Position numbers and translations under genes: made by a program. DNA of 64,000 bases, taken from the NCBI GenBank assembly GCA_009692685.1, contig SHYS01000002.1:1-64000 (forward strand). The letters are read 5' to 3'. The number at the start of each line of letters is the position of its first letter. The first letter of the stretch is position 1. Shown piece by piece: positions 8,309 through 44,449 of this stretch. The DNA comes from Dehalococcoidia bacterium (lineage in GTDB: Bacteria; Chloroflexota; Dehalococcoidia; UBA2979). The notes below the pieces were generated by a model, which did no database searches, was not told the DNA's origin, and saw nothing but the letters and a program-made list of their open reading frames with translations.

Positions 8309-8310
8309 GG

Positions 8311-8995: not shown

Positions 8996-9739
8996 TCAGT
9001 CGATGGCGAAGACCGCGCTGACGTTGATGGTCACCTCCGACTGCCCCGCACTCAGTGGCGTCGGAACGTCACCCGCAGCCCGTGCCTCGGCCAGCTGGGG
9101 CCCGCCGAACGGAATCGGCACGCCGCCTGAGGACTCGGAGATGCTGTGCGACTTCCCGAGCGTCACGCCCGCTTCCTTCGCGAGTGACTCAGCACGCTCG
9201 CGCGCATCCTTCAGCGCAAGCTGACGCGCCTACGCTTGGAATTGCTCGGGCTTGTCCACGGCAAACGAGATGCCGATGACGCGCGTCTCGTCGCCACCTG
9301 CCTCGACAGCGTCATCGAGCACCTTCGAGGCGTTGTCGAGGTTCCGTACCTTGACGGCCACGGAGTTCGTCGTGACGTAGCCGATGATCTGCGGCGTCGT
9401 TGTCGGCCGTGACGAGTATGCAGGACGGATGCTGAGCCCCTGGGTCCTGATGTCCTTATCATCAACGCCGTTGCGCTTGAGCGAGGCACGCACAGCATCG
9501 AGGGCTCGCGCGGCCTTCTGTCGCGCCTCGGCCACCGTCGACCATCGGGCTTCGACGCCAATGCTGAGGACGGCGATGTCCAGCGCCACCGTGACCGAGC
9601 CGACGCCGTTCACCGAGATGCCGCCCGGGTCAGGCGACGTGCTCACAGTCGTCGTCGTGTCGCAGGCGAGCGCGAATCCGCTCAGCGCGGCGGCGAGGAC
9701 GAGTGCGCCGAGCTTGCCTCGACCGGTTCGATGTGTCAT
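8996..9739 (-). pseudogene. SIMPL-domain lipoprotein interrupted by one in-frame TAG
   Basis: 247 codons from ATG 9737-9739 to TGA 8996-8998, with a TAG at 9230-9232 after DKPEQFQA. The frame continues without shift as ARQLALKDARERAESLAKEAG and closes with [14 protein letters not shown], exactly the C-terminal half expected of a SIMPL (DUF541) protein. The N-terminus is a lipoprotein signal ending LSGFALAC. The middle has GVGSVTVALDIAVLSIGVEA. SIMPL proteins are secreted or envelope-associated and poorly understood. The amber codon sits in GCG TAG GCG and could derive from CAG or GAG. It may be a point pseudogene, a sequencing error or a readthrough product. The adjacent anti-sigma/sigma genes on the same strand are also damaged. 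Confidence 0.8.
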
Positions 9740-9763
9740 GAGACTCCGTCCAATCTCGACGAA

Positions 9764-10655
9764 CTACGTGCCGCCCCGTGCGCGACGTCGAAACCACAGA
9801 ACAATCGCAAGCACCCCGAAGACCGAGTTGGCGACGGCAGCAGCGAACTGCGCTCCCCACAGCGCGGATTGCGAAGAGCCCGCATCGCCATTGGAGAGCG
9901 CAACCAGCTGCTCTGACGGTGACGGGATCGCGGGCAGAGCGGCAGCAGCGGAGCCGGCCGACGTGGCGGCGTCGCTCGCGGGCGCACCGGGCGCGCCTGT
10001 TAGAGGCGTACCAGGCGCCGAGGCCAGGCCGGGTACCGTCCCCGGGGCGAGTCGTGGAGCGACCGGCGCCGGCTGCGTGGTAACGCCACCCGCTCCCACC
10101 GGGGCGCCCTCGGCGCCGTGGGCTGCCGCGCGTGCGCCCGCGGGCGTGACAGCCGGGGCAGACGGCGGTACCTCGGGTGCGGCCTGCAGCGACTGGCCCG
10201 CCTCGGCGTTCGTCTGCTTGCGCGCCGCTGCGGGCTCCCCGCAGCATCGAAGGACTCAGTCACAGAGGTGCTCGAACGCTTCGCGAACGTGCCGGTGAAC
10301 GAGGGTGCCAGCGACGTGGCCGTGAGCACCAGGCCGCGGCGACGGTCGCAAAGCTCAGGTACAACTCGAAACACAGCAACCCGACCTAGTGCGGCACGTC
10401 GTGCAGCGTCAGCGTGAAGGAGCGCGGCGCGCGCACCATGCCGAGCTCACCAAGGCCGGCACGAACTGCGCGCATCCCCTCGAGAGCGAAGCGGGTCTCG
10501 GGATCTCGGTCGGCATCGGCCTCAATGCGGGCGCCGTCGGGACGGGACAGGAAGCCGTCGAGGTACTGCGAAAGCTGCTCATCGCGGAGCACGCTCCCGG
10601 AGCGCGCGACGGTGTCGTCGCTTCGGTCACCACCTCGTCGCTAGGGCAAGCGCAT
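9764..10655 (-). pseudogene. Anti-sigma factor (zf-HC2-type), disrupted by two TAG codons and two frameshifts
   Basis: Assembled by eye from three frames. ATG 10653-10655 follows a GAGGAGG motif. MRLP is followed by TAG at 10641-10643, then RRGGDRSDDTV and the zf-HC2-like LRDEQLSQYLDGFLSR. A second TAG at 10386-10388 follows HDVPH; the frame continues as VGLLCFELYLSFATVAA. A one-base loss near 10333 is needed to read LVLTATSLAPSFTG (membrane-proximal). A second shift near 10210-10240 gives a long Pro/Ala-rich linker, and the protein ends with a transmembrane helix (VANSVFGVLAIVLWF) and RRR. Its position just after an ECF sigma gene supports the role. The exact shift points are my inference. 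Confidence 0.6.
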
Positions 10656-10704
10656 CGCTTCGACCCGCCTCCTCGCTAAGGACTCGTGAGTGCCCGGTTA
10701 CACA

Positions 10705-11287
10705 CTAGGAGACGACCGGAGGGGGCACGAGTTCCCCGGTAGCCAGCAGAATGTCGCGGAGCCGCCCCCGGGCGCGGATCAGGCGTGACTTCACGGTCCC
10801 GAGGGGGAGCGGACAACCTGCGCCACCTCGCTGCACGAAAGGCCGTGGATGTTGGAGAGCACCACGATGAGCCGCCAGTCCTCGGGCAGTTGCAGGATGG
10901 CCCGCTCAAGGGCGACCCGTAGCTCGGTGTTCATGGCGCTGTCCTCGGGAGAAGCCCCCGGATCGGGAGGATCGAGGGCTGGTGCATCCGCGGAAGCCCC
11001 ACGTGCATCAAGGGATTGCGTCGGTCGCCGCCGCTGACGTCGGAGTTCGTCCCGACAGGCATTGGCCACGATGGCGAGAAGCCAGGGCCGGAAACGGTTA
11101 CCGCGGAAGGAGCGAATCGCGCGGAAGGCGCGCAGGAAGGCCTCCTGGCTGGCGTCCTCGGCGGCGGCGCGCTGTCCCATAAAGCGGTATGCGAGGCTTA
11201 GACCTGATCCTGGTGCGCCAGCACAAGGGAATTGAAGGCCTGGATGTCACCGGCCTGGGCACTACGGATCAACTGGGCCGTGTCCAC
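10705..11287 (-). pseudogene. ECF RNA polymerase sigma factor, two single-base frameshifts
   Basis: Region 2 reads LIRSAQAGDIQAFNSLVLAHQDQV, then a base is missing near 11200, after which SLAYRFMGQRAAAEDASQEAFLRAF (core and DNA-melting segment) continues. Region 4 reads LPEDWRLIVVLSNIHGLSCSEVAQVV, then a base is missing near 10803, after which LGTVKSRLIRARGRLRD completes the -35-recognition helix and the gene ends at TAG 10705-10707. With both bases restored, a normal sigma-E-sized protein of about 195 aa results. The start is uncertain: GTG 11285-11287 is used, directly after a tract of nine C (nine G on the plus strand) that could itself be miscounted. Likely cotranscribed with the anti-sigma gene. 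Confidence 0.75.
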
Positions 11288-11454
11288 TTGGGGGGGGGCT
11301 GGCTCCCTGCGTACGAATCAGCTGAACTGCCGCGCAACGCACCGCCGATGACCGCCCCGCCAGCCAGTCACAGGCTACAAGCGAGCGTAGCATTCGACCT
11401 GTTCTCTCGAAATCCGGGAACCACCGCCTCGAACCAGAGTCACGGGGAGCCTCG

Positions 11455-12285
11455 ATGCCACTGTCCTCCGGAAAACAACTCCTGCAGGAGGCCGAGCGCG
11501 GGGGCTACGCCGTGCCTGGATTCAACGTCTCGAACATCGAGCTTGCTCTCGGCGTGCTCGACGCGGCTGACGCGAACCGAGCGCCGGTGTTGTTGCAGTT
11601 CAACCCGGCCAACATCGAGCACTTTGGTGGCATCGAGATCGCGGCCGCCACTGCCCGCGTGCTGGCTGCGCAGGCCAGTGTGCCGGTCGCGGTTCATCTC
11701 GACCACGGCCCTGAACTGCCGCTACTCCGTGCGGCCGTGCGTGCCGGCTTCACGTCGCTGATGTTCGATGGCTCCACGTTCCCGCTGGAGCGCAATGTCC
11801 GTGAGACGCAGGAGGCGGCCGCGATCGCGCTGGCGGCCGGACTGGCCCTCGAAGCCGAGCTGGGCCACGTCGGCGGTCGCGAGCCCGGCGTGGCCATATC
11901 GGAAGCCGTGCTGACCGAGCCCGAGAGCGCACGGCGTTTCCTCGAGCTCACGCGAGTCGACTCGTTGGCAGTCTCCGTTGGGACGGCGCACGGGATGGCC
12001 GGCGACGTGAACCTCGAGCTGGTGGCGGCGCTCCGCGAGGCGACGCGCGGGCTGCCGCTGGTGCTGCACGGGGGCTCCGGCGTGATGCCGGCTCAACTGC
12101 GCGAGGCAGTACGCGCCGGCATTCGCAAGGTCAACATTTCGACCGAGATACACCAGGCATTCGGAAAGGCGCTCGCGGCAGGCGTCGAAGGCGACCCCCG
12201 ACCCGCGTTACGTCGTGCGCGAGCCGCCGTCGCGGAAGTGGCGGCGTCGCGGATCGAGCTTCTCGGAGCGGCGCGCCGTAGCTAG
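11455..12285 (+). CDS. fba: Class II fructose-bisphosphate / tagatose-bisphosphate aldolase family
   Basis: 276 aa. Zinc-dependent aldolase that cleaves fructose 1,6-bisphosphate, or a related ketose bisphosphate, in central carbon metabolism. Features: YAVPGFNVSNIE near residue 19, the zinc-binding VPVAVHLDHG near residue 78, FTSLMFDGSTFPLERNV, a second zinc site EAELGHVGG, VGTAHG, and the phosphate-binding LVLHGGSGV and VRKVNI-type ends (IRKVNISTEIH). ATG start preceded by GGGAG at a six-base spacing. Ends with TAG. Specificity for fructose versus tagatose bisphosphate cannot be decided by eye. Confidence 0.88.
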   Translation: MPLSSGKQLLQEAERGGYAVPGFNVSNIELALGVLDAADANRAPVLLQFNPANIEHFGGIEIAAATARVLAAQASVPVAVHLDHGPELPLLRAAVRAGFTSLMFDGSTFPLERNVRETQEAAAIALAAGLALEAELGHVGGREPGVAISEAVLTEPESARRFLELTRVDSLAVSVGTAHGMAGDVNLELVAALREATRGLPLVLHGGSGVMPAQLREAVRAGIRKVNISTEIHQAFGKALAAGVEGDPRPALRRARAAVAEVAASRIELLGAARRS

Positions 12286-12399
12286 CGATACTGAGCCGGA
12301 CCGGGCAACCAGGCTGCACGCAGGCATCCGTAACTGTCAACACATCCCGAGGTATGGGACGCACATACTTTCTTGACTCGTGGCTAGACCGCCCGGGGC

Positions 12400-12405
12400 T
12401 ATACT
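12400..12405 (+). promoter_or_regulatory. Possible -10 box (TATACT) of a leaderless lepB promoter
   Basis: TATACT ends only eight bases before the lepB ATG at 12414, so initiation at the usual distance would fall on or beside the start codon, giving a leaderless mRNA. No Shine-Dalgarno precedes this ATG. A TTGACT at 12373-12378 is present, but the 21-base spacer is longer than the sigma-70 optimum. The call rests on a short motif and may be chance. Confidence 0.25.
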
Positions 12406-12413
12406 CGCTGTCG

Positions 12414-13208
12414 ATGTTGAACCCGTTGTCCTCAGACGACGCCCCAGACCGGCCGCGAGAGATCGCGCTGCTGCCGCTCGCTCCGGCCCCGACCCACCAG
12501 GGCCTCGAGGATGTCGACCCGTGGGCCAGAGGCTGGCAAGCACCTGTCTTCCCACGCACAGTCGAATATGACCACGCGCCACCGGAGCGACGAACGCTCG
12601 TCCCGTGGCAGTGGCTCGCCGAAGCACTCGAGGTGGTCGCCCTCGCGCTGTTCATGTTCATGGCGGTGCGCGGGGTCGCACAGAACTTCATCGTCGATGG
12701 CGCCTCGATGGAGCCGAACTTCCACAACGGAGAGCTCGTCATCGTCAACAAGCTCGCGTTCAAGACGGTCGACCTGTCGCCCCTCCCGTTCATCGATGGC
12801 AAGCGCTGGCAACCGTTCCGCGACCCGGCGCCGGGCGACGTGGTGGTCTTCGAGTTCCCACAGGACCAGACGCGCGACTTCATCAAGCGTGTGGTCGCAG
12901 TGCCCGGCCAGACCGTCGAGATCCATGACGGGCACGTGTACGTCGACGGCGTGATCGTAGAGGAGCCGTACCTCTTGGAACCGCCGCACTACGCGTACGG
13001 TCCCACCTCAGTACCGCCAGGACAGCTCTTCGTGCTCGGTGACAACCGCAACAACTCGTACGACTCGCACTCGTGGGGGATGCTGCCCGACGAGCATCTG
13101 GTCGGCCGTGCGGAGTTCCGCTACTGGCCGTTGTCAGCCGCGGGTCGGATCAGCCACCACCCGATCCTCGAGGCGTCGTCGCAGGCCGGAGGCGCCAGAT
13201 CCCGGTAG
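12414..13208 (+). CDS. lepB: Type I signal peptidase
   Basis: Membrane-anchored serine protease that removes signal peptides from exported proteins. 264 aa from ATG 12414. A cytoplasmic leader of about 68 residues precedes one transmembrane segment (VVALALFMFMAVRGVAQNF). The catalytic Ser lies in VDGASMEPNF (Ser98) and the catalytic Lys in RDFIKRVVAVPGQ (Lys158). The conserved GDNRNNSYDSHSWG box follows. A second in-frame ATG at 12354 would add 20 residues overlapping promoter-like sequence, so I chose the downstream start. Ends with TAG, 12 bases before the likely pyrE start. Confidence 0.93.
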   Translation: MLNPLSSDDAPDRPREIALLPLAPAPTHQGLEDVDPWARGWQAPVFPRTVEYDHAPPERRTLVPWQWLAEALEVVALALFMFMAVRGVAQNFIVDGASMEPNFHNGELVIVNKLAFKTVDLSPLPFIDGKRWQPFRDPAPGDVVVFEFPQDQTRDFIKRVVAVPGQTVEIHDGHVYVDGVIVEEPYLLEPPHYAYGPTSVPPGQLFVLGDNRNNSYDSHSWGMLPDEHLVGRAEFRYWPLSAAGRISHHPILEASSQAGGARSR

Positions 13209-13219
13209 ACCCGACCATC

Positions 13220-13762
13220 GTGGCCGCCTTCGAAGAAGCGGGCGCCCTGTTACACGGGCATTTTCAACTCGCCTCCGGCAGGCACTCGGACGCCTACATC
13301 GAGAAGTTCAACCTGCTGCAGTGGCCCCGACATACCGAGGTAGTGTGCCGCAGCTTGGCGAGCGGCGGCCGCGAGTTCGCACCGCAGCTGATCGTCGGCC
13401 CAACGACCGGGGGCGTCATCATCGCCTATGAGGTCGCGCGCCAGCTCGGGCTCCGAGGCGTGATCGCAGAGCGCACCGACGGCGGTGGCAGGGCAATCGG
13501 GCGGCACTTCCGCATCGAGTCCGGGGAGCGCGCGCTGGTGGTGGACGACATCTTGACCACGGGGGGCTCAATACGTGAAACCCTCGCGGCAGTGGTCCAG
13601 GCCGGCGGCGTGCCGGTAGGCGTGGCCGTGATGGTGGACCGCTCCGGCGGACGCGTCGACTTCGGTGTCCCGCTGTACGCCGCCACCGACGTGGAGATGC
13701 AGACGTGGGAGCCCGCCGCGTGCCCCCTCTGTCCGGCCGGTATCCCCCTCGAAGTGACATAG
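13220..13762 (+). CDS. pyrE: Orotate phosphoribosyltransferase
   Basis: Transfers phosphoribosyl from PRPP to orotate, making OMP for pyrimidine synthesis. 180 aa from GTG 13220. N-terminal GALLHGHFQLASGRHSD matches the family, as does LIVGPTTGGVIIAYEVAR. The PRPP-binding motif is ALVVDDILTTGGSIRET. An unusual C-terminal CPLCPAGIPLE with two Cys occurs in several bacterial homologues. An earlier start inside lepB is possible in frame but would duplicate lepB coding. Ends with TAG. Confidence 0.92.
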   Translation: MAAFEEAGALLHGHFQLASGRHSDAYIEKFNLLQWPRHTEVVCRSLASGGREFAPQLIVGPTTGGVIIAYEVARQLGLRGVIAERTDGGGRAIGRHFRIESGERALVVDDILTTGGSIRETLAAVVQAGGVPVGVAVMVDRSGGRVDFGVPLYAATDVEMQTWEPAACPLCPAGIPLEVT

Positions 13763-13874
13763 GGCCGCCGAAACAACCCCCGCCTCATTACACATACGTA
13801 GTAGACAAGCGATCTCGCGAGCGCGATCGTGAGTTCGCGCCTGCGTTCTTTTCAGCAGCGCGGAGGTTGTCCCG

Positions 13875-15955
13875 ATGCCGTTCGATCTGAGCGTAGACCT
13901 TGGTTTCTTCTGGTCAGTGCTGGTCATTACGTTACCCGTGCTCGCGTTCCTGCTGGTAGCAGGACGACCACTGGTGAACATCGGCGGCGAGCAGGTTGGC
14001 ATCGTGGAGCGTCGCTACCTCGGACGTGGCCTGCCGGAGGGGCGCGTGATCGCGATGCCCGGACAGGCCGGGCATCCAGGCGCGCGTGCTGCGCCCAGAC
14101 CTGCACCTGCTCATCCCGTTCCTGTATCGGGTGCAGAAGCGCCCGATGATCGTGATCGCGGAGGACGAGGTCGGCATCGTCTAGTCAATCGACGGCAACC
14201 TGCTCGCGCCGGGCCGCATCTTCGCGCGTCGCATCGGCGCGCACGACTCGTTCTAGGACGGCGAGGCCTTCCTGAGCGCGGGCGGTCAGAAGGGCCCGCA
14301 GGTCGACGTGCTGCCGCCGGGGCAGTATCGAGTCAACACGTACCTCTTCCGCGTTTGCGCGGAGCCGGCGCTGATCGTGCCCGCCAACATGGTCGGCGTG
14401 GTCAGCGCACGCGACGTGGTGCAGATCGCCTCGGGGCGCCTGCTCGCCGCGAAGACGGGGAACCACAACTCGTTTCAGGACGGCGAGGCGTTCCTGTCGA
14501 GCGATGGTCAGCGCCGCCCACAGATCGACGTGATCCTGCCGGGCCGGTACCGCCTCAACGCCGACCTCTTCAGCGTTGAGGGCGCACCCGCCGTCGTCGT
14601 CGAGTCGGCGAAAGTTGGGCTGGTCACGGCGAAGGATGGCGCACCGCTACCGGCGGGCGAGCTGGTCGCTGCGACGGTTCAGGGACACACTGACTTCCAG
14701 GACGGCTCTGCCTTCCTGACGGCCGGCGGACAACGCGGCCCTCAGTTCGATCTGCTGCGGCCCGGGACGTATTACATCAACCCGCTGATGTTCGACGTCA
14801 AGATCGACGACGTGGCGGTCGTGCAGCGCGGCCAGGTGGCCGTGCTGGTCTCGAACGTCGGCCTGGAGCCGGACGCGGTGGAACAAGAACGGCTGGCCGA
14901 GGGGTTGGAGCGCAACGTGGTGCCTCAGGGCTTCCGTGGCATCTAGGCCGAGGTGGCCGGACCGGGCGTGTACTACCTCAACCGCTGGGCCTACCTCGTG
15001 TACATCATTCCGACCACCAACCTGACGGTGGACTGGGCCGAGGAAACCACCATCGTCACGGAGATGGCGGGACCGGCCACACAGATGGAGTCGACCGCAG
15101 ACGGCATCCAGCGCGCGCAGCTCTTCAACCCGCTCTAGGTCATCAGCCGTGACGGCTTCGAGATGAAAGTGTCCGTCAAGGTGATCATGCGGGTGCATCC
15201 GGAGCAGGCGCCACTGATGGTGGCGAAGATCGGCTCCGTGCAGAACCTGATCGACCACGTGATCCACCCGATGATCGACTCGTCCTTCCGCAACCAGGCG
15301 TCGTCCACCGAGGCGATGTCGTTCATGCAGGACCGCACGATCGAGCAGGAGAAGGCAGAGGCGCGTGCGCGTGAGGAGATGGAGAAGTATCACGTCGAGT
15401 GCGTGCGTGTGCTGATCTCGCAGATCATCCTGCCCGAGGGGTTGATGCACATCCAGACGCGGCGCGTCGTTGCAGCGCAGCAGCAGGAGATGTTCATCGA
15501 GCAACAAAAGTCCGAGCAGCAGCGCATCGCCACGGAGAACACGCGCACAGGCGGATCAGCAGATCAACCTCGTCAGCGCGCGGATCGGCGTGCAGATCGC
15601 CGAACAGAACCGCCAGAAGACAGTGATCGAGGCAGAAGGTCGCGCGCGCGCCGTCGAGCTGGAAGGCGAGGCCGAAGGCACCAAGATCCTCGCCATTGGC
15701 AACGCCACCGCCGAGGCGTACGACCGTCAGCAGAACGCGATCGGCCAGTCGAACCTGTTCGGCATCGAGATCGCGAAGTCGATCGCCGGCGCGGGTCTGA
15801 AGATCACGCCGGACATCGTCGTCGGCGGCGGTGGAGGCGACAGCGCGTGGTCGAACATCTTCGCGGCGCTCCTCGCGCAGATGCTCGCAGACGGACGCAC
15901 GCCAGGCGGCAACGGCACGAACGGCACAACTCTGACCGCACCGCCCGCGAACTAG
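13875..15955 (+). pseudogene. Flotillin-like SPFH protein with three tandem N-terminal repeats; four in-frame TAGs and two frameshifts
   Basis: A single gene of about 690 codons when repaired. An N-terminal transmembrane helix (FFWSVLVITLPVLAFLLVAG) is followed by three repeats of about 72 residues built around NSFQDGEAFLS, PQVDVLPPGQYR and TYLF (from about 14215, 14430 and 14650). The SPFH core (WAEETTIVTEMAG, FNPL-VISRDGFEMKVSV) and a long coiled tail rich in EQQKSEQQ, AEGRARAVELEGEAEGTK follow, with a Gly-rich end. TAG occurs at 14182, 14254, 14944 and 15136, all in one frame. One extra base lies near 14070 and another shift near 15546. Comparison with repeats 2 and 3 shows the second TAG replaces Gln. 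Flotillins scaffold membrane microdomains. Ends with TAG at 15953-15955. Confidence 0.8.
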
Positions 15956-15958
15956 CAG

Positions 15959-16007
15959 CCCGCGACGAGAACTCGCGGGGCGCTCGAGGCATACCTAGCC
16001 TCGAGCG
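15959..16007. terminator. Two adjacent hairpins between convergent genes
   Basis: CCCGCGA (15959-15965) pairs with TCGCGGG (15973-15979), and CGCTCGAGGC (15981-15990) pairs with GCCTCGAGCG (15998-16007). They lie between the convergent SPFH and exchanger genes, so they probably act as bidirectional terminators. No strong T-tract follows on either side, so Rho-independence is uncertain. Confidence 0.55.
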
Positions 16008-16042
16008 TCTCTGTAGTTACACCAGTGTGCGGGTACGGCCTG

Positions 16043-17329
16043 CTAAACCTCGACGTGGGCGTCGGCGAAAGCTTTGGGGTTCTTGAACACCTGGATGGCC
16101 GTGTGCACCAGCTCGCCGACTTCGCGACGCTGGCGAAGCGCGAGGTAAAGCGCGAGCACGATGTAGAGCACGCCGATCGAGACACGAAGACTCTCGACGT
16201 ACGGGGCGAACGCGGGAACCAGCTCTCCAAAACCCGGTGCGAGGAACTGAGTGGCGAACAATCCCACCATGAAGCTGGCTTCGCGGGTGCTCAGACTCAG
16301 GCTGACGAGTACGGCGACGCCGAACGCCGACTGAGCGCTGGTGAGAAACATCTCCTCGCGCGCTACCTGCTCCATGGGGAACGCGGCGAGGCTGCCCCCG
16401 GAGATCGCGTAAGCCAGCGGCAAGCCACCCACCAGCAGCGTCCACTGGTTCACCTTCGCTGAGATCAGAATGCCCATCGCTACCGCCGCACGCCCGCGCC
16501 AGGCGAGGATTGCCGCCACCACAAACTCCGGCGCCTCCGAGGCCAGCGGTGCGAGCCACTGCACCAGCACGAACTCGTCGATCCCGACCTGGGTACCCAC
16601 GTGCACGAGTCCGTGAGCGAACGGCTCAGCGCACGCAACGATCGATGCCGCCGAATACACAAACAGCGCACCGACCACGGTGCGCCGCTGAAACCTCGGC
16701 AGAGCGCCGATCGAACGCGCGGGCCCGATGAGCTCGGGCTCCTCGCTGGGCGAGCGGGACAGAACCGAGACGTAGCCGACGAAGATGCAGCCCAGCACAA
16801 GAGCGTCGAACAGCGAGATGCTGCCCTTGAACGGCAGCACAAACGAATAGAGCGTCGCGATCGTCAGCGCCACCACCTCAAGGGAGTAGTGCTTCTCGAG
16901 GGTCAGTAGCTTCGAGCGCGTGCGATACCAGAGGATGCCGACAATCAGCGGCCAGGCCGCGCCGATCAGGAGGCGGTTGCCGCCGGTCATGTTCGCCACC
17001 GCGAACTTGGCCTGCTCGGGATCGCCGGGCGCGTTCCACGCGAAGGTCAGGCTGACCGCGTACTCGGGTATGACGGCGATCAGCGCGATGAACGCCACAG
17101 CCACACCCCGCGCGATGTCGACCTCTGAGGCTTCGGCACTCCACGCGAGGAGAAAGGCCGCGGCAACGATCGAGAGTCCGAACAGGGCGGTGTCACCGGA
17201 AGTACTGATGTGGACGCCGAACACGCCCACGATGACCCCGGGCAGCGCAAGCGCAAGAACCACTAGGACGATCGTCCGGTTGCTTAACAGCGTGATCTCC
17301 GAGAGGCAGGTGCGGGGGACGGGCATCAT
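16043..17329 (-). CDS. Sodium/calcium exchanger-family membrane protein
   Basis: 428 aa from the paired ATGs at 17324-17329. It has about eleven hydrophobic segments. Two inverted alpha-repeats typical of the CaCA superfamily contain acidic/Asn signature residues: IALIAVIPEYAVSLTFAW with FAVANMTGGNRLLIGAAWPL in the first half, and LAPLASEAPEFVVAAILAWRG with ILISAKVNQWTLLVGGLPLAY in the second. Members exchange cations such as Ca2+ for Na+ or H+ across the cytoplasmic membrane. The ion pair cannot be assigned. A more upstream GTG would add 54 non-hydrophobic residues overlapping the opposite-strand gene at 17408, so it is rejected. Ends with TAG. Confidence 0.82.
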   Translation of the reverse strand: MMPVPRTCLSEITLLSNRTIVLVVLALALPGVIVGVFGVHISTSGDTALFGLSIVAAAFLLAWSAEASEVDIARGVAVAFIALIAVIPEYAVSLTFAWNAPGDPEQAKFAVANMTGGNRLLIGAAWPLIVGILWYRTRSKLLTLEKHYSLEVVALTIATLYSFVLPFKGSISLFDALVLGCIFVGYVSVLSRSPSEEPELIGPARSIGALPRFQRRTVVGALFVYSAASIVACAEPFAHGLVHVGTQVGIDEFVLVQWLAPLASEAPEFVVAAILAWRGRAAVAMGILISAKVNQWTLLVGGLPLAYAISGGSLAAFPMEQVAREEMFLTSAQSAFGVAVLVSLSLSTREASFMVGLFATQFLAPGFGELVPAFAPYVESLRVSIGVLYIVLALYLALRQRREVGELVHTAIQVFKNPKAFADAHVEV

Positions 17330-17407
17330 TGTCGTACATTGGTGGCAGGCACGCCACGCTGAACCGTCGGACGCCTCGATCGTGGCCGCCGGTGGCGGTA
17401 CCGTGCA

Positions 17408-18031
17408 GTGGTGTGGTTCGACAGTACGTGCTGCTACCCACTGGATGAGGTGCGGACGCTGGTCGAGTTCGCGATGGCGGAGATCGACCACTCGCAGCTC
17501 GCAGTTCGGGTGAAGAACACGCGCGACGTCTATCGAGGACGCGCCTACGACGGGCTACCGTCTCTGTCGGCAGCGAACCGCGTTCCGGGCATGACGCGAC
17601 TCGTCACCATTGGCATCGGGCCACCCTCAGGCTTCCCCACCACCAACGAGGTACGCAGAGCGCGCTGGCGCAAGGTGCGCGCCAACGAGTCGTTGGACGG
17701 CGTGCGCAAGAGCGACCTGCGCGTGTCGCCCTCGAAGAGCGTGGCCACGACCAGATCACGCGTGAAGGCGCTCCTCGGCCTGGAGCCCGCACCACGTCTC
17801 GAACGCCGCGAGGTCCGCACGCATGGTTACGGCGGCGTGACCTCGCCGATCGTGAGCATGACTGACTGGCGCGAGGCGCTGGTCGCGGTTGCAGCACACG
17901 AGGCGCGACACGTCTGGCAGTACCAGCACGACGCGCCTCGGAGCGAGGTAGACGCGGAGCGCTACTCGGACGGGCGTCTGGCGCTGTGGAGGGAGTGGCG
18001 CGCCTGGCGCGAAGGTCCTGTGCTCGACTGA
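17408..18031 (+). CDS. Unknown protein with a HEARH metalloprotease-like motif
   Basis: 207 aa. No family name recalled, but the organisation LVEFAMAEIDHSQLAVRVKN, then RGRAYDGLP, and a C-terminal VAAHEARHVWQYQH is coherent. HEARH is an HExxH-type zinc motif, and the His three residues after Gln-Tyr-Gln may be a further ligand, so a small metallopeptidase is a possibility. It lacks a signal peptide. Start uncertain: GTG at 17408, with ATG 17474 as the next candidate; the segment before the ATG looks like part of the fold. It ends with TGA, one of few left-hand genes not using TAG. Confidence 0.55.
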   Translation: MVWFDSTCCYPLDEVRTLVEFAMAEIDHSQLAVRVKNTRDVYRGRAYDGLPSLSAANRVPGMTRLVTIGIGPPSGFPTTNEVRRARWRKVRANESLDGVRKSDLRVSPSKSVATTRSRVKALLGLEPAPRLERREVRTHGYGGVTSPIVSMTDWREALVAVAAHEARHVWQYQHDAPRSEVDAERYSDGRLALWREWRAWREGPVLD

Positions 18032-18094
18032 CTCTGGCCCGTCTCGGCTGAGTTACGCTGGATCGAGGATCCAGACGGACCGAGGAGGCCACGA

Positions 18095-18349
18095 ATGAAG
18101 CACCATCGAGGCATGCGCGATTTCAGCCCACGCCACCGGGCGATGATGGGGTTTGACGCACTCATGCAACTCGCGCTGCTGGCTGCGGCGCAGGTCGACC
18201 TGCTGCGTCGGCCGGACGACCGCGTTCGAGGGTCGAAGTGGGGCTGGCGTGCGGCGACACTGGTGAACTTCGTCGGGCCGATCGCGTACTTCGTGTTTGG
18301 CCGACGCGAGCCCGAGACACACGAGCCGCTGGCCGAAGGCGTCGTCTGA
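18095..18349 (+). CDS. Small membrane protein, PLDc_N-like
   Basis: 84 aa, starting MKHHRGMRDFSP, with GAGGAGG ten bases upstream. Two hydrophobic segments (FDALMQLALLAAAQVDLL and TLVNFVGPIAYFVFG) end in GRR, matching the PLDc_N (phospholipase D-nuclease N-terminal) two-helix domain often found as a short stand-alone protein. Its function is unknown. Ends with TGA, ten bases from the convergent amidase gene. Confidence 0.6.
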   Translation: MKHHRGMRDFSPRHRAMMGFDALMQLALLAAAQVDLLRRPDDRVRGSKWGWRAATLVNFVGPIAYFVFGRREPETHEPLAEGVV

Positions 18350-18359
18350 GCGAGCTTCG

Positions 18360-19664: not shown

Positions 19665-19745
19665 CCGTGTGCCTTTCGAGGGCTGCTGGGCGGCGTCCGT
19701 TCATCCGACAATCATGATGCGAGAGTGTCGCGAAGGGCTAGCCCG

Positions 19746-19973
19746 ATGTTCAACAGTTGTGATGCATGCCGGCGGCCGAACCCGACCGAACTCGTGCAGA
19801 TCTAGGCTGAACGTGGCGAGCTTGTCGCCTCAAAGCTGGGCCTGGCGCTACGCCCTCGGACCCGCGACCTGTTCGTGCTCTGCGCAGGCTGCGGTGAAAT
19901 CGCACTGACGCGGCTTCGTCAGGTGGTCGCGACACGCGGCGTGATCGGCCAGTCGCTGCAGCAGGCTTCGTAA
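19746..19973 (+). pseudogene. Small CxxC zinc-binding-like protein, interrupted by TAG
   Basis: 75 codons before the stop, from ATG 19746 to TAA 19971-19973, with one TAG at 19803-19805 (ATC TAG GCT). Before it: MFNSCDACRRPNPTELVQI. After it the frame continues as AERGELVASKLGLALRP and DLFVLCAGCGEIALTRLR. Two Cys-x-x-Cys pairs about 45 residues apart suggest a zinc ribbon. No other stop or shift is needed, so this is one of the cleanest amber cases. The family is unknown. It lies in the 368-base gap between the amidase and a lipoprotein gene; apart from it I see nothing there. Confidence 0.5.
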
Positions 19974-20032
19974 TCCGCGCCACCGTGGTGGCTTGATCGC
20001 GCTGGCATACCCTCCCCTACGCTGGGTGCGAG

Positions 20033-30415: not shown

Positions 30416-30425
30416 TCGGACTGAC

Positions 30426-31617: not shown

Positions 31618-33744
31618 ATGGCAAACGTGCAGGAGGGAGCCGCACAACCGGCGGGGCGGACTCGGCCTCTATGCCGCCACGATCTTCGTTGGCGCGTTCC
31701 TGCTCTTTCAGATTCAGCCAATCATCGGCAAATTCGTGCTTCCGTGGTTCGGAGGTAGCGCCGGCGTCTGGGCTGCAGCACTCCTCTTTTTCCAGCTGTT
31801 CTTGCTTCTTGGCTACACGTACGCGCACCTTGTCTCGACCTGGTTCAGCCCGCGCGGGCAGGCGATCGCGCATCTGGCCGTGCTCGCACTCGCGGTGGTC
31901 GTGCTGCCGATCATCCCATCGGACAGCCTGCAGCCTGAGACGACGGACAACCCCGTGCTGAACATCATCCTGCTGCTCGCGGCCAACGGGCCGCTGCTGC
32001 AGGGCTAGTTCGTGAGGCAGTATCACGGGCGGTCGCCGTACCGCCTGTACGCGCTATCGAACGTCGCCTCGTTGTTAGCGCTCTTGTCGTACCCGGTGAC
32101 CTTCGAGCGTGCGCTGGGCCTCCACACGCAGGCGTGGCTGTGGTCGGGGGGGGGGGCTACCTCCTGTTCACCGCGCTGTGCGTGGCGATCGCCATCCTGC
32201 AGCTGCGCAACGCCACGCGAGACACGGCGAACCGGGAGTCGACGCCGCACCGGCTTGCCTTCGCGGTCCCCTAGACACCCGCCGAGGCCATCCGTCCGTT
32301 GCAGGTGACCCTGTGGGTGCTGTTGCCCGCCGTCGCCTCCGGGATGCTGGTCGCCACGACGAACCGGCTGACGCAGGAGATCGCACCGGTGCCGCTGCTC
32401 TGGGTGCTCCCGCTGAGCCTGTATCTGGCAAGCTTCATCCTGATGTTCGACAGCGACCGCTGGTACCACCGCCTCATCTACGTGCCGATCGTGCTGTTTT
32501 TCCTCGGCGGAGCGACCGACACGATCTTGCGGCCGGGCCAGTTCTCGCTGGTGCAGCAGGCGGGCGTGCTCCTGGGTGCGCTCTACTTCACCGCGATGCT
32601 GTGCCATGGCGAGCTGGTCGCGCACCGGCCCGGCATCCGACACCTGACGAAGTTCTATCTCGCGGTCTCGGCAGGCGGCGCGCTGGGCGGCGCTGTGGTC
32701 GCGATCGGCGCGCCAGCGTTCCTCGACGGGTACTGGGAGTACCACTACTTTCTCATAATCGCCGCGGTGACGGCGACCGTCGCGATGGCGCTGCAGGTAA
32801 GCAAGGTCACGACATAGCGGGCGCGGACCGGCGCGCTGTTTGCGACGGGCCTCACCATCGGCGCAGCAGTCACCATGGGCGTCCAGCTATCGAATCGCGT
32901 CGCCTTCGAGCGCGGCGGGCGCTTCCTGGTGTCACGCAACTTCTACAGCGCCCTGCAGATCCAGGAGGTGTGGGCGGACGGCCCGCTCCTGCACCAGTTC
33001 CAGATGGTGCACGGCCAGACCGTGCATGGCATCCAGTTCCGTAATCCTGAGCGCCGCGCGTGGCACACGTCGTACTTCGGGGACGACAGCGGACTGGGTG
33101 TTGCGATGAAGCGCCACCCCTCGAGGGCGGCCGGGCGACCGTTGCGGATCGGCGTGATTGGCCTCGGCACCGGCTCGATCGCGTCATACGCCGAACGTGG
33201 TGACACGCTGCGCTTCTACGAGATCGACCCGCAAGTCGAGGTGATCGCACACGAGCAATTCACGTACCTGGACGACGCGGTGGCTCGAGGCGCCACGGTC
33301 GAAACGCTGCTTGGCGATGGTCGCATCGTGCTCGAGCGAGAGCGCGATGCCGGCAACGCGCAGCACTTCGACATCTTCGTGATGGACGCGTTCAACAGCG
33401 ACTCGATTCCCGTGCACCTGCTGACTCGCGAGGCGCTGGAGCTGTACAAGAGCCACCTCGCGCCCGGTGGCATCGTGGCGGTCAACACCAGCAACCGCTT
33501 CCTCGATCTCACGCCGGTCGTGCGGGCACTGGCCGAGGCAGGCCACCTGCAGGTGCGCCTGTTCGTCAGCCAGGACAGCACGGAGCGCGGCACCAACAGT
33601 TCAGAGTTCGTGCTGCTCACGGACAACGCCGCCTTCCTCGAAACACCCGCCGTTCGAGAGGAAGCCGACCCCTTGCCGGACTTCAAGACACCCGTGCTCT
33701 GGACCGACGACTACAGCGTGCTCCTGCCGCTGCTGAGGTTCTAA
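31618..33744 (+). pseudogene. Membrane-fused spermidine-synthase-like protein; three TAGs and two frameshifts
   Basis: About 705 codons if repaired. Start MANVQEGAAQPAGR at ATG 31618; an extra base near 31660 moves into GLGLYAATIFVGAFLLFQIQP, the typical N-terminus. Then FVLPWFGGSAGVWAAALLFFQ and several membrane helices, with TAG at 32006 after GPLLQG. An 11-G run at 32146-32156 shifts back. TAG follows at 32272 and 32815. The last 300 codons form an intact Rossmann methyltransferase-like/spermidine synthase domain: IGVIGLGTGSIASYAERGD, FYEIDPQVEVIA, FIVMDAFNSDSIPVHLLT (read as IFVMDAFNSDSIP). Family members are fused membrane proteins of unresolved substrate. Ends with TAA. Confidence 0.75.
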
Positions 33745-35046: not shown

Positions 35047-35056
35047 GGCGAACCAC

Positions 35057-36310
35057 ATGACCTCGAAGGTGCTGGCGGGGCTACGCGTCATCGAGTTGAG
35101 CGAGGTGTGGGCCGGGCCGATGGCCGGGTCGCTGCTCGGCGACCTCGGCGCTGACGTCATCAAGGTGGAATCGTACCCACGCAACTCGCAAACGCGCGCG
35201 CTGGTCGAAGGTGGTGCCGGGTCGGCGCCCGGGGACGGCCCACCATACGAACGCTCCGGCATTCACCACCTGCCGAACCGCAACAAGCGGAACATCACCC
35301 TCAACCTGCGCCACGAAGACGGGGCGGAGCCCTTCCGTCGTCTCGTCCGCGGCGCCGACCTGCTGTACGAAGGCTATTCGGCGGGCACGCTGGAGCGGAT
35401 GGGCTGGGGCTGGGGCGTCCTGCGCGAGATCAACCCGAAGCTCGTCATGGTCTCGATGCCAGGGTGGGGCAAGGCCGGACCGTACCAGGGCTTCGTGACG
35501 CTCGGGTCGGGCCTCGACGCTTCAGCCGGGCACACGGCAGTCCGAGGCTACCCCGGGGACCCGCCAGAAGAGACGCGCTCGATCTACCACTCGGACGCTA
35601 CGGGCGCGCTCACGCTCGTCTTCGCGGCACTGACCGGACTCCGTCAGCGCGAACGCACGGGCGAGGGCTGCTTCATCGACATGTCGCAGATCGAGGTGCT
35701 GGTGGCCCACCTGCCCGGCGTCTTCGCGGAATGGACGCTCCTCGGACGCCGCCCGAAGCCGCTCGGCAACGTCGACCCGCACATCGTGCCCCACGACGCC
35801 TACCCGGCTGCTGGCGACGATCAGTGGGTGTTCGTCGCCGCCGAGGACGACGCACAGTGGGCTGCCATCGCCGGCTTGCTCGCTCACCCCGAGTGGGGCG
35901 CCGACGGCCACCTCTGGTCGACGGTGACGGGCCGCCTCGCCGCCCGCGCGGACATCGATACCGCGATCACGACGTTCACGAGGGCGCACGCGGCCTCGGA
36001 CGCGGCCGACGCGATCCAGGCAGCGGGCGCGATCGCCTCGCCGATCGTCGACCCACCGCAGATGTTCGTTAGCCCACAGCTGCAGGCGCGCGAGTGGTTC
36101 CAGATGGTCACTCACAAGTTCGCGGGGACGAACATCATGCCCGGCTTCCTCTGGTCGATGTCACCGGACGGTCCCACATGGGACCGCCCGACCGGCCTGG
36201 TGGGCGAGCACCTCGACGAGGTGTTCACCGAACTCGGCTATTCGCCAGCGGATATCGAGCAGTTCGAACGCGACGGCGTCATTGGGCGGAGCTACGCCCT
36301 GCCGGGCTAG
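35057..36310 (+). CDS. CaiB/BaiF family (class III) CoA-transferase
   Basis: 417 aa from ATG 35057. LRVIELSEVWAGPMAGSLLGDLGADVIKVESYPRNSQTR, LPNRNKRNITLNLRHEDG and GTGEGCFIDMSQIEVL-type motifs (RTGEGCFIDMSQIEVL) place it firmly in the family. The C-terminal GLVGEHLDEVFTELGY is the usual end. Encoded immediately after a homologous gene in the same orientation. Relatives act on formyl-CoA, carnitine, bile acids, succinyl-CoA, 2-methylacyl-CoA and others. Substrate not deducible. Ends with TAG. Confidence 0.87.
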   Translation: MTSKVLAGLRVIELSEVWAGPMAGSLLGDLGADVIKVESYPRNSQTRALVEGGAGSAPGDGPPYERSGIHHLPNRNKRNITLNLRHEDGAEPFRRLVRGADLLYEGYSAGTLERMGWGWGVLREINPKLVMVSMPGWGKAGPYQGFVTLGSGLDASAGHTAVRGYPGDPPEETRSIYHSDATGALTLVFAALTGLRQRERTGEGCFIDMSQIEVLVAHLPGVFAEWTLLGRRPKPLGNVDPHIVPHDAYPAAGDDQWVFVAAEDDAQWAAIAGLLAHPEWGADGHLWSTVTGRLAARADIDTAITTFTRAHAASDAADAIQAAGAIASPIVDPPQMFVSPQLQAREWFQMVTHKFAGTNIMPGFLWSMSPDGPTWDRPTGLVGEHLDEVFTELGYSPADIEQFERDGVIGRSYALPG

Positions 36311-36359
36311 CGCCCTCGCCGGACCTCTTGTCGTGCCGTCGATTCAAGCGCTGAACGCC

Positions 36360-36650
36360 TCAGCGGTCGGTGAAGACCGTCGCGAAGATCGTCACCGTGT
36401 CGCCGGTCGAGGCGGAACCGACACCGACGAGCCTGTAGGCGGGGTTGAGGATGTTCGTGCGGTGCGTCGGGCTCGCCATGAGCGCCTCGATAGCCACGCT
36501 CACCGAGGTCGGTGCGTCGCCGTACACCTTCGCGAGGTTCGCGCCACCTGCCGAGAAGGTCATGTTCTGGGCAGCCAGGCTGTACCAGGTCTCGCCGGTC
36601 GGACTCGAGTGCGAGAAGTAGTTCTTTGTGAGCATGTCGGCTCTCTAGGC
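36360..36650 (-). pseudogene. CAP/SCP-domain (YkwD-like) protein, N-terminally truncated
   Basis: The frame gives RADMLTKNYFSHSSPTGETWYSLAAQ, VSVAIEALMASPTHRTNILNPAYRLVGVGSA and a C-terminus TIFATVFTDR, the core of a secreted CAP domain. It opens at ATG 36633-36635, but homologues extend upstream, and there the frame carries TAG at 36645-36647 and then loses similarity. The preceding sequence belongs to a TadE-like gene in another frame, so the CAP 5' half (signal peptide and first helix) is missing. Ends with TGA. Confidence 0.6.
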
Positions 36651-37077
36651 GCGCGTCCGAGCATGCCCGCATCGTGATCGAGGATCCAAAGCCACCGCCG
36701 CCGAGAGCAGCCATGAGACTCCCCACCGTGATGATCTGCATGTATGCGTGCTCTATCCGTATGATGACTTCGTCACCTCGACCTTTGAAGTTGGCGCCAT
36801 CGGTTGTCACGTGGGTCGGGTCGACCCGGACGAAGACGTCGCTGCACTTAATGGTGCCAAAGGATGCCGTGACGGCACGTTGCCTGATCGTCTCGTTCGT
36901 ACCGCCCGCACCTTTGCAGTCCACTGCGCTGCCGGTCTCCTTGCCAAGCGCCGCGAATCGGGCAGCCTCGCGTGATTCCTGCTGCACATTCAGGTTCGTC
37001 CAGAGCATGAAGCCGAACTCGACCACGAGCAGCAGCAGGATGAACACGAAGGGCAGCAGCAGCGCTACCTCGATCAT
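36651..37077 (-). pseudogene. TadE-like pilus protein, 3' end lost at a junction with the CAP gene
   Basis: AMIEVALLLPFVFILLLLVVEFGFMLWTNLNVQQESREAARFAAL is the typical TadE prepilin-like N-terminus with one transmembrane helix, followed by a ~100-residue extracytoplasmic domain with Cys pairs to about GFGSSITMRA. After that the frame runs on into the CAP gene region in an unrelated frame, so the natural end is missing. TadE proteins are minor components of Flp/Tad pili. No other tad genes are visible. An upstream in-frame segment, RVGRGRAEHSGHA, could be a propeptide. Confidence 0.65.
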
Positions 37078-37142
37078 GGCATGGCCACTGTGTTCTGCGC
37101 GCCCGCGCCCGACCCGCGAGAGAAGTCGTCTTACTGTGCTAT

Positions 37143-39409: not shown

Positions 39410-39415
39410 GGTGAC

Positions 39416-40428: not shown

Positions 40429-41730
40429 CTACATGGTGCCTAGGACTCCCGCCTCGACCAGGGCGTCAATCTCGTCTCGAGCCCAGCCGAACTCCTCGAG
40501 GAGTTCGACGGAATGCTCGCCGAGAGCAGGTGCGGCACGCCGCGCCGCGGTTGGTGTCTTCGACATCTTGACGATCGGCGACACGACCCTTTGCGGGCCC
40601 GTGATCGTGTGCGTCAGGTCCGTGATCATCCCGTCTGCGAGCACCTGGGGTTGGTCTGCCATCTCCTCGGGGATGTTCACGGGGGAGACCGGGACGCGCG
40701 CCTCATCGAAGGCTGCCACCCACTCGGCCTGGGTGCGAGTGCGGAACTTCTCGCGGATGCGCCGCTTCCACTCGGCCGCCAGCTCGATGTTGGCCGGGTC
40801 AAGCGCGTCGTAGTCCGGCTCGCTCGAATGTTCCTCGCCGTAGATGCCCAGCACCTTGCGCATCGCGTTGCGGTTGGCGACAGTCAGCGCGCCGAGGACT
40901 ACCGCACCATCTTTCGCGTTGTATCCGCCGTAGTACAGCCTGGTGGCGGCGCGAACGCCCTGCTGACTCTGGCGCGCCTCCAGAACTTCGTCCCACGTGC
41001 CACCTCGAGCGCGCACTGCCGCGACCTTCTCCATCGCCGGGTCGCGCAGGACTGCGTCGTGCACCGGCTCGCGCATCACGGAGCCGGAAAGCAGCGACAA
41101 CGACGTGCGAAGGAGCGACGTGGTCATGAACTGGCCTTCGCCCGTCTTCTCCCGGTGGAAGAGCGCGGCACTCACCCCCATCGCCGCTGCAATGCCGGAG
41201 GCGATGTCGGCGATCGGACTCTGGATGAGGTCCGGCGCGCCGTCCTCGTCCATCTTCGCGTCGAGAGCCATAAGCCCCGAGTATGCCTGCGCCACGATGT
41301 CCGAACCAGCGCGGAACTTATCCGGCCCCTCGTTACCGAAGCCCGTGTTCTGCCAGTAGATTAGGTCCGGCCGGAACTTCCGGAGCGTGTCGTAGTCGAT
41401 GTTCAGGCGCGCGGCCACGTCCAGCCGGTAGTTGATTGTCACGACGTCGATGTGCTTGATGATGCGCTGGATGAGCTCCTGACCTCGGTGATCCTGGAGG
41501 TCCACCACCAGGCTGCGCTTGCCTCGGTTCAGCGCCTGGAAGCCCTTCGACTCGTTGGGGACGATCGAGCCCGAACGCCGCGACTGCTCGCCGCCCGGCG
41601 GCTCGACCTTGATCACCTCGGCACCGAGATCGGACAGATGCACGCCCGAGACGGGCGCCGCGACAATTTGCGAGAACTCGAGAACTCGGATGCCGGCCAG
41701 TGGTCCTGTGGCGGCGGGGATTTGTGTCAT
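40429..41730 (-). CDS. CaiB/BaiF family (class III) CoA-transferase
   Basis: 433 aa. MTQIPAATGPLAGIRVLEFSQIVAAPVSG, LSDLGAEVIKVEPPGGEQ, NRGKRSLVVDLQDHRGQELI and YWQNTGFGNEGP match the family, and the nucleophilic Asp fits the V-V-D-L loop. FEARVPVSPVNIPEEM-type region (FDEARVPVSPVNIPEE) and APALGEHSVELLEEFGW follow. ATG at 41728-41730 has GGGAGGTGACC in front, a strong ribosome site. Third member of this family in the window. Ends with TAG. Confidence 0.88.
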   Translation of the reverse strand: MTQIPAATGPLAGIRVLEFSQIVAAPVSGVHLSDLGAEVIKVEPPGGEQSRRSGSIVPNESKGFQALNRGKRSLVVDLQDHRGQELIQRIIKHIDVVTINYRLDVAARLNIDYDTLRKFRPDLIYWQNTGFGNEGPDKFRAGSDIVAQAYSGLMALDAKMDEDGAPDLIQSPIADIASGIAAAMGVSAALFHREKTGEGQFMTTSLLRTSLSLLSGSVMREPVHDAVLRDPAMEKVAAVRARGGTWDEVLEARQSQQGVRAATRLYYGGYNAKDGAVVLGALTVANRNAMRKVLGIYGEEHSSEPDYDALDPANIELAAEWKRRIREKFRTRTQAEWVAAFDEARVPVSPVNIPEEMADQPQVLADGMITDLTHTITGPQRVVSPIVKMSKTPTAARRAAPALGEHSVELLEEFGWARDEIDALVEAGVLGTM

Positions 41731-42217: not shown

Positions 42218-42477
42218 TGGCCTCTCGGATCCGCATTGGGAGCGCGCCGCAGTCTGCCCGCTTTCCCGAATAATCGGTTGGCCAACAGGTCTGGCGTACT
42301 GGGGCGCACCATATCGAACGGACGCCCCGTTCCTCTTTCTGGGGTGTGGAGCCTGCCGCGCCCTGCCCGGGGGGCCACCGTTGCCGGATTGGTGAGCGCA
42401 CGTCAATGTGCACAGTCTGCGAACCGCGCTCTTGAAGGAGGCTCGCCGCCGCCGGACAGACAGAGCTGCCAGACAGA

Positions 42478-42510
42478 CAAAGGGGCCGCGTCTTGTGACG
42501 GGCCCCTTTG
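42478..42510 (-). terminator. Hairpin terminator of the acyl-CoA dehydrogenase gene
   Basis: CAAAGGGGCC (42478-42487) pairs with GGCCCCTTTG (42501-42510); the loop itself contains CGTC-TTGT-GACG, extending the stem. It lies about 20 bases past the ACAD stop on the minus strand and is followed there by TCTGTCTG. Likely Rho-independent or stabilising. Confidence 0.78.
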
Positions 42511-42530
42511 ATCCTCGATGGAAGGCTGCG

Positions 42531-43748
42531 CTAACCGCGGGGCAGGCCCAGCCCGCGCGTTGCGATGATGTTGCGCTGAATCTCGGACGACCCCGCTGCA
42601 ATCGTGCGCGGGATCGAGGTGACGTACAGCCTCGTGAACTGCCCGCCCATTGGCGAGAGCGGATCGGTGCGCTCCCACAGGTTCGCGTACAGCCCGAACA
42701 CCTTCGTACCCAGCCGGGCCACGCGCTGCACCAGCTCCGAGTTGAACAACTTGCTCGTCGAGGCCTCGTAGTTGGGGATGAGGCCTCGGTTCTGCATCGA
42801 GATGATGCGGAACGAGAAGTTGAACAGCACCTCGGACTGGACGGCTGCCTCGGCCATCTCGTGGCGTAGCGGGTCGGACCTGTCGAGGCGGGCGCGCTGG
42901 CGACCTTCCTCGGTCTTCGTGTAGTCAACGAGGTTCGAGATCAGCCTGCGGTTCTCGATGGCGCCCGCGATGTTGGAGCGCTCGAAGTCGAGCAGCGAGG
43001 CACCGACGTACCAGCCGCGGTTCTCCTCGCCCACGAGGTTCCGAGCTGGCACGCGGACGTCCTCGAAGAATGTCTCGTTGAACCCGTGCTGCCAGGCCAT
43101 GTTGATGAGCGGCCGAACGTTCAGGCCGGGCGTGTGGATGTCCATCATCAAGAAGGAGATGCCACGGTGCTTCGGCGCGTCCGGATCGGTCCGCACCAGG
43201 GCGAACAGCCAGTCCGCGGTATGTGCGCCCGACGTCCAGATCTTCTGTCCGTTGATCACGTACTCGTCGCCGTCCTTGACGGCGCGCGTCTGCAGCGACG
43301 CGAGGTCCGAGCCAGCGCCCGGTTCCGAGTAGCCTTCGGCCCAGGCGACCTCGCCAGACAGAATCCGAGGCAGGTGCTCGGCCTTCTGCTCGTCGGTGCC
43401 GTGCACGATCAGCGTTGGCCCAAGGAGCGAGACGCCCATGCCACCCACGCCGGGGGCCTGCGCCTGCGCCATCTCCTGCTTGAAAATGAACTGCTCCATC
43501 GGCGACAGACCGGCGCCGCCGTACTGCTTCGGCCAGTGGGGGGCGATCCAGCCGCGCTCGGCCAGCGCACCTGCCCAGTCGGCGGCAGCTTTCTGGGCCA
43601 CGGGGTCGCTCGACTTACGATCGGACTGCCAGCCTGCGCCACCCTCTTCCTCCGCAGTGCGCTTATAGCGCGCCGGAAGCTTGCTATCGATGACGTCTTT
43701 GACCTGAGCGCGGAAGGCCGACTGCTCGGCGTTGTCGTTCCAGTCCAC
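42531..43748 (-). CDS. Acyl-CoA dehydrogenase
   Basis: FAD enzyme that oxidises an acyl-CoA at the alpha-beta bond. 405 aa. N-terminal helical half (GWIAPHWPKQYGGAGLSPMEQFIFKQEMAQA), the beta-domain signature WAEGYSEPGAGSDLASLQTRAV, YVINGQKIWTSGAHTADWLF, and the helical C-terminus with PRTIAAGSSEIQRNIIATRGLGLPR. The usual C-terminal glutamate region is in the AGSSEIQ motif. GTG start 43746-43748 with AAGGAGAGG in front. Together with CoA-transferases and the aldo-keto reductase it fits a peripheral carboxylic-acid catabolic cluster. Ends with TAG. Confidence 0.92.
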   Translation of the reverse strand: MDWNDNAEQSAFRAQVKDVIDSKLPARYKRTAEEEGGAGWQSDRKSSDPVAQKAAADWAGALAERGWIAPHWPKQYGGAGLSPMEQFIFKQEMAQAQAPGVGGMGVSLLGPTLIVHGTDEQKAEHLPRILSGEVAWAEGYSEPGAGSDLASLQTRAVKDGDEYVINGQKIWTSGAHTADWLFALVRTDPDAPKHRGISFLMMDIHTPGLNVRPLINMAWQHGFNETFFEDVRVPARNLVGEENRGWYVGASLLDFERSNIAGAIENRRLISNLVDYTKTEEGRQRARLDRSDPLRHEMAEAAVQSEVLFNFSFRIISMQNRGLIPNYEASTSKLFNSELVQRVARLGTKVFGLYANLWERTDPLSPMGGQFTRLYVTSIPRTIAAGSSEIQRNIIATRGLGLPRG

Positions 43749-44055
43749 CGGTGCCTCTCCTTCGAGGTAGGCGGCGCCACGAGGCGCCAGCCGCCAAAAC
43801 TATACACGCTATCCCCCTCGATATCACGCCGCCACCGTCAGTTGAGCTGGTGCACGCAGCTGCCTCGTTGAATTCGACGCCGCTGAGTCAGGAAATGGGC
43901 GCGGGGCGTTAGCTCTCATGCCCTGAACCTAGGCGGCTGCCTGGCCACCAATGTTTGACCGCGGTTAACGCCGCGATCATGCTGTGTGAAGATGGCGGCG
44001 CCAGCGCCAAAATAGAAGGCGTAGAGTTCGAGCAGCAGCCGAAACGGAAACAACA
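43749..44055. other. Intergenic segment without a recognised gene
   Basis: About 307 bases between the ACAD gene and the first gene fragment. I found no coding frame with family-like features on either strand, no tRNA and no strong hairpin. It probably carries the promoter of the minus-strand ACAD gene, but no convincing -35/-10 pair stands out. Confidence 0.4.
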
Positions 44056-44304
44056 GTGACCGAGGTCTTGTGGCTGGGTGACAAACGCTGCCTGGACGTT
44101 TCGCAGGTGGGGGCGCAGGCCGCGCACTTGAGCCGCCTAGCGACGCTGCACCTCGTCCCACTAGGCTGCGCCATCTAGGCCATGGACGGCGGCAGCGAAC
44201 TGCCGCCGGACCTCGAGGAGGCGATCCGTCGCGCTTACCGCGAGCTCACGGCTGCGACGCGCAACCTGCATGCGCCCGTGGCAGTGCGCCGAGGATCGCA
44301 GTAG
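44056..44304 (+). pseudogene. Phosphoenolpyruvate synthase-like N-terminal fragment
   Basis: From GTG 44056: TEVLWLGDKRCLDVSQVGAQAAHLSRLATLHLVP corresponds to the PEP-utilising ATP-grasp N-terminus (normally VGGKAAxLxRL..VPPGF). TAG at 44176-44178 interrupts, and the same frame resumes as LPPDLEEAIRRAYRELTAATRNLHAPVAVR, again family-typical. Similarity then stops at about 44290 where it should read SSATAEDL; the rest is the complement of a transporter fragment. So it is both amber-interrupted and truncated to about 76 residues of an ~800-residue enzyme. Confidence 0.65.
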
Positions 44305-44449
44305 TGATCGTGTGCGTGGTGGAGATGGGCAACCCAAGGCGTGAGGTCGCGAACAGCACCGAACTCGCCACGGTATCGGCCGCGAAGCTGGCCGGAGGAT
44401 CGAGGTCGATGACTTTCCGACCGAGCGTGCGAATGATCCGCTAGCCACC
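44288..44449 (-). pseudogene. PiT-family inorganic phosphate transporter, internal fragment
   Basis: The minus strand reads SGG-TAG-RIIRTLGRKVIDLDPPASFAADTVASSVLFATSRLGLPISTTHTITTAILGA. The IxxLDPPxxFAA..GLPxSTTHT signature is characteristic of the C-terminal PiT repeat. The TAG at 44441-44443 sits where the family has Trp (GGWRII). Upstream and downstream parts of the gene are absent. Its 3' end directly meets the 3' end of the PEP synthase fragment on the other strand. Confidence 0.65.

Follow-up and report, generated by a model that had tools for sequence, protein, structure and literature searches.

Pseudogenes broken by nonsense mutations and frameshifts are a known phenomenon in bacteria. 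In-frame stop codons are also found in Crassvirales-type phages, where TAG is reassigned to Gln. Stop-codon reassignment in phages of this type is the subject of PMC11210395. The DNA analyzed here is the first 64,000 nucleotides of contig SHYS01000002.1 from a Dehalococcoidia bacterium (the window). A preliminary description of it listed 14 premature in-frame stops in damaged genes, all of them TAG, and named recoding, biased mutation and sequencing error as possible causes. The interrupted genes are very likely real pseudogenes, probably of recent origin, with TAG stops that arise from GC-rich codons; their host is an uncultured bacterium of the Chloroflexota, GC-rich and related to Dehalococcoidia. 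The cause of the pattern is most likely ordinary.

Like known bacterial pseudogenes, the window's damaged genes have homology that continues past the stop (9/14 sites), intact homologues elsewhere, frameshifts in some of the genes and private changes at conserved sites. They differ in their ratio of stops to missense changes, which is somewhat higher than expected from random decay. With the Crassvirales-type reassignment the window shares in-frame TAG codons, some of them at Gln codons. However, TAG is the main terminator in the window and stands in place of Glu, Ser and Trp as well, and the nearest genome shows no tRNA with the anticodon CUA.

All 14 positions of the preliminary description hold TAG, which for minus-strand genes appears as CTA. 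Continuation of the same frame beyond the stop was borne out at nine of them, where homology spans the stop (9230, 14182, 14254, 14944, 15136, 19803, 32006, 32272 and 32815), and the all-TAG pattern is real for these nine sites. The other five are weak or lie at an edge. Position 10386 has a weak alignment to one open reading frame (ORF); 10641 is in none of the alignments of a relative-gene census and may precede the gene start; 36645 is opposite a gap in the one aligned relative; 44176 is also in none of the census alignments; and 44441 is at the left edge of a 47-residue PHO4 relic. For the census, gene predictions from the relatives' loci, some of which overlap, gave 503 genes; these were compared with the window and covered 49,887 of the 64,000 bases. 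The census took the place of a count that antisense ORFs had confounded. Within the bases covered, homologous flanks surrounded neither TAA nor TGA, save for a TGA at 18123 that was judged spurious, and the claim that neither codon was needed holds for this testable part. The ORF that gave the TGA at 18123, from locus L001, also yielded a TAG at 18360 and the weak alignment at 10386. The TAG at 18360 is an ordinary gene end, and the match of the L001 ORF there was judged spurious as well.

The GC content of the window is 63-69%, measured in 4-kb steps. Its nearest relative in the genome collection is the metagenome-assembled genome RBC038, entered as uncultured Chloroflexi bacterium. The Band 7 protein of RBC038 is 84% identical to the window's, and the two are collinear in pieces across 5678-19931. 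RBC038 is a draft genome of a different species, and its tRNA and release-factor data are supporting only. The remaining six loci from the Band 7 search carry the names Dehalococcoidia, Chloroflexi or Thermoflexaceae. In the homologue protein searches the best 120 matches were listed, with scoring limited to the candidates sharing most words.

Four of the nine supported stops fall in an SPFH/Band 7 (flotillin-like, PF01145) pseudogene at 13914..15955 on the plus strand, which also has two frameshifts. At 14182 the DNA of 7/7 relatives encodes Glu, by GAG or GAA, and 17/17 homologous proteins have Glu. At both 14254 and 14944 the codon is CAG in 7/7 relatives and the residue is Gln in 17/17 proteins. 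Position 15136 is aligned with Ser, Leu or Ala codons in the relatives, and with Ser in 14 and Ala in 3 of the 17 proteins. A fused MFS/spermidine-synthase-like pseudogene (NF037959) at 31661..33744 on the plus strand has three TAG and one frameshift. Trp stands at 32006 in 5/5 matches, and at 32272 and 32815 the homology is unbroken and the column variable. The SIMPL gene (PF04402; 8999..9739, minus strand) has a single in-frame TAG at 9230, where the homologues among the matches listed have Glu or Gln. A small CxxC reading frame (19743..19976, plus strand) has a TAG at 19803, opposite CAG in the one syntenic relative. The replaced residues differ, being Glu, Gln, Ser and Trp.

Five frameshifts were called from protein alignments, the short gaps in blastn alignments having proved too noisy. 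Three are within the two genes that bear both lesions, Band 7 (near 14065 and 15540) and the spermidine-synthase-like gene (near 32152). The other two, near 10797 and 11198, are in a decayed ECF-type sigma factor (Sigma70_r2, PF04542) that lies on the minus strand at 10250..11275 and is followed by a putative anti-sigma frame, which has no family match. These two frameshifts adjoin the TAG codons at 10386 and 10641 of the putative anti-sigma frame, which are unsupported as premature stops. An ENA contig of 268,671 bases encodes a protein that matches the window SIMPL at 168/169 residues and has the same end at residue 169, so the SIMPL truncation appears to have been inherited, or at the least to recur.

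One-step nonsense changes in the damaged genes were scored by mutating their codons in silico under four mutation models. TAG accounted for 64.4% of these changes under uniform mutation and for 65.2% when transitions were favoured; a GC-to-AT bias gave 63.3%, and GC-to-AT transitions alone 66.0%. With TAG at 63-66%, the earlier expectation that random stops would commonly be TGA in this sequence is wrong. TGA is not expected to be common because the codons one step from it (CGA, GGA, TGC and TCA) are scarce, at 4-7 per thousand codons, whereas GAG, CAG, TCG and AAG are abundant, at 18-48 per thousand. The suggestion of biased mutation is correct in that the outcome is biased, but the bias is mostly a consequence of GC-rich codon usage. 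In the proposed mechanism, random point mutations and small insertions and deletions (indels) would disable a few dispensable genes. Stops from point mutations would be TAG because GC-rich codons (GAG, CAG, AAG, TCG, TGG, TAC) lie one step from TAG, and less often from TGA or TAA. The genes are presumably dead in the cell, and mutation there would be otherwise unremarkable.

Decayed transposases in relatives served as a control. Members of three transposase/integrase families were sought across 99 genomes that are related to the nearest one, and the control set consisted of all listed matches with internal stops (24 matches, 23 loci). Among these matches, the internal stops at a local GC of at least 0.62 were TAG in 6/6 cases, a small number with some loci from one genome. 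Below 0.62 TAG accounted for 5/26, with 13 TGA and 8 TAA. The dependence on local GC has a Fisher P of 0.0005 at a cut that was picked after the first batch; the second batch added two high-GC cases, each of them TAG. All-TAG decay is what the few GC-rich cases in related genomes show.

The damaged genes also have private amino-acid changes at sites that are otherwise invariant. Band 7 has nine in the window, compared with 2, 0, 0 and 0 in the nearest four relatives and 4 in homologue P0006. The spermidine-synthase-like gene has six (3, 0, 0 and 3 in the nearest four). SIMPL has five (1 and 1 in the nearest two intact homologues), three of which precede the stop and are also present in the 168/169-identical database protein.

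Several results weigh against simple decay of these genes. Distant long-branch homologues equal or exceed the window's private changes (8 in P0047, 21 in P0253). One-sided amino-acid changes relative to the nearest genome are balanced in the damaged rows, 119 being window-only and 115 relative-only. The corresponding counts for 18 intact rows are 180 and 203, the outgroup in several of these rows being a distant paralogue, 26-38% identical. By gene, the ratios of window to relative are 40:25 for Band 7, 62:62 for the spermidine-synthase-like gene and 17:28 for SIMPL. The one-sided counts show little overall relaxation. They derive from 42 segments, 26 of which had both comparison sequences. 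Two of these were dropped, segment '0' for its wrong frame (8 stops) and segment '57' because its nearest-genome match is a 31% paralogue, and 18 intact and 6 damaged rows remained. Under the codon-usage expectation, the probability that 9/9 stops are TAG is 0.016-0.024, and that 14/14 are TAG 0.0017-0.0030. Random decay of the damaged-gene codons in silico gives 14-26 missense changes per nonsense change. At the invariant sites about 15 excess missense changes accompany 3 TAG, where 0.6-1.1 are expected. Because the missense changes are few for the number expected per stop, the stops are in modest excess over them. The excess could be explained by small numbers, by recent death of the genes, or by a CCAGG hotspot at 14254 and 14944. 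Finally, protein-level detection found no frameshift in SIMPL or the CxxC frame. These two remain TAG-only cases, as had been proposed.

A hotspot created by a Dcm-like methylase might add to the codon-usage bias, with CCAGG/CCTGG changing to CTAGG/CCTAG and turning CAG and TGG into TAG. Amber hotspots in lacI occur at CCAGG. Among the relatives, 14254 is CCAGG in 7/7 and 14944 in 5/7, and 32006 is CCTGG in the one relative shown, though the window has GGC before this TAG. Of 356 five-mers compared with the nearest genome, CCAGG/CCTGG shows the strongest depletion, if a weak one (z -1.7), and CTAGG is commoner in the window than in the seven relative sets counted. However, all relatives have a Glu codon opposite 14182 and a codon for Ser, Leu or Ala opposite 15136, and the relative has CCAGG at just 3/15 aligned CTAGG positions. 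A hotspot of this kind is an unlikely contributor. A CTAG/CCWGG-specific signature, of error or of mutation, was considered and rejected: no CTAG change was among the 60 most asymmetric five-mer changes against aligned relatives, and the CCAGG depletion is weak. Sequencing or assembly error, in the form of long-read indels and miscalls, would fit the co-occurrence of stops and frameshifts in two genes, and some TAG contexts are compatible with a CCWGG miscall; such miscalls do occur. Yet 14 events (nine TAG and five frameshifts) are packed into five genes, and adjacent genes have open frames. Uniform placement of 14 events over 54 genes would touch about 12 genes; with approximate gene lengths, six or fewer were touched in 0/200,000 simulations. 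A probability based on the share of bases was set aside as circular, since the events themselves decide which genes count as damaged. The SIMPL end is common to a database protein with one differing residue, though that protein might come from a second assembly of related reads, or the shared end from a systematic error that recurs. Because the lesions are clustered and the database SIMPL is cut at the same residue, uniform error as the cause is contradicted, and error of any sort is quite improbable.

By amber readthrough or reassignment, UAG would be read as an amino acid in some genes. It would be in keeping with supported premature stops that are all TAG and with the few missense changes beside them. 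Yet TAG is also the main true terminator, a point on which the preliminary description was right. The 54 predicted gene ends in the window comprise 35 TAG, 12 TGA and 7 TAA, and after removal of four premature ends TAG accounts for 31/50. By a stricter rule TAG ends 25/44 genes in the window and 33/60 in pieces of the nearest genome, and some window gene ends are TAG or TGA at the matching place in the relative. TAG as the commonest normal stop of the window contrasts with the preference of GC-rich bacteria for TGA as terminator. The residues lost are not one amino acid (Glu, Gln, Gln and Ser in Band 7, Trp at 32006), and frameshifts occur in two of the TAG-bearing genes. The anticodon CUA is absent from the window's single tRNA and from the 32 tRNA matches in the nearest genome, a draft and not the window's own (30 loci; the other two matches fall inside neighbouring loci). 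The same draft encodes one PET-motif and one SPF-motif protein, which are taken to be the RF1-type and RF2-type release factors. Because TAG ends 31/50 genes and replaces Glu, Gln, Ser and Trp, recoding as the cause is contradicted; readthrough is exceedingly improbable and nothing points convincingly to a new genetic code. Just as improbable is a weak natural suppression of UAG, which would let amber mutations survive in genes under weak constraint but leave UAA and UGA mutations to be purged. If it were true, it would have left its mark in the surplus of TAG relative to missense changes.

The remaining TAG codons of the preliminary description lie farther downstream. A TadE-like frame at 36300..37080 on the minus strand, with TAG at 36645, continues stop-free over a stretch that in another frame resembles the end of a CAP-type domain. 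The stretch looks as if a deletion had fused two genes; the CAP-type label at 36300-37080 is presumptive and has no Pfam or NCBIfam match. The TAG at 44176..44178, in a short frame on the plus strand, is outside all relative-gene alignments and is unsupported. The PHO4 phosphate transporter relic (PF01384; 44299..44443, minus strand) is 47 residues long and has the TAG at 44441 at its upstream edge. The region of the relic (44299-45045) is about 530 bases away from a tRNA-Lys (TTT) gene. At 42531-43778, 40429-41700 and 33880-36310 there are acyl-CoA dehydrogenase and CoA-transferase family III genes. At E<=1e-20 the acyl-CoA dehydrogenase stretch is matched at 9 places in the nearest genome and at 17 in a further one, an expanded paralogue family.

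With the damaged genes read as pseudogenes of a GC-rich lineage, the result is a caution: premature stops that are all TAG in a GC-rich genome are near expectation, and alone are no sign of recoding. The codon-usage expectation, together with the GC dependence in the relatives' transposases, provides a simple null model for alternative-code screens.

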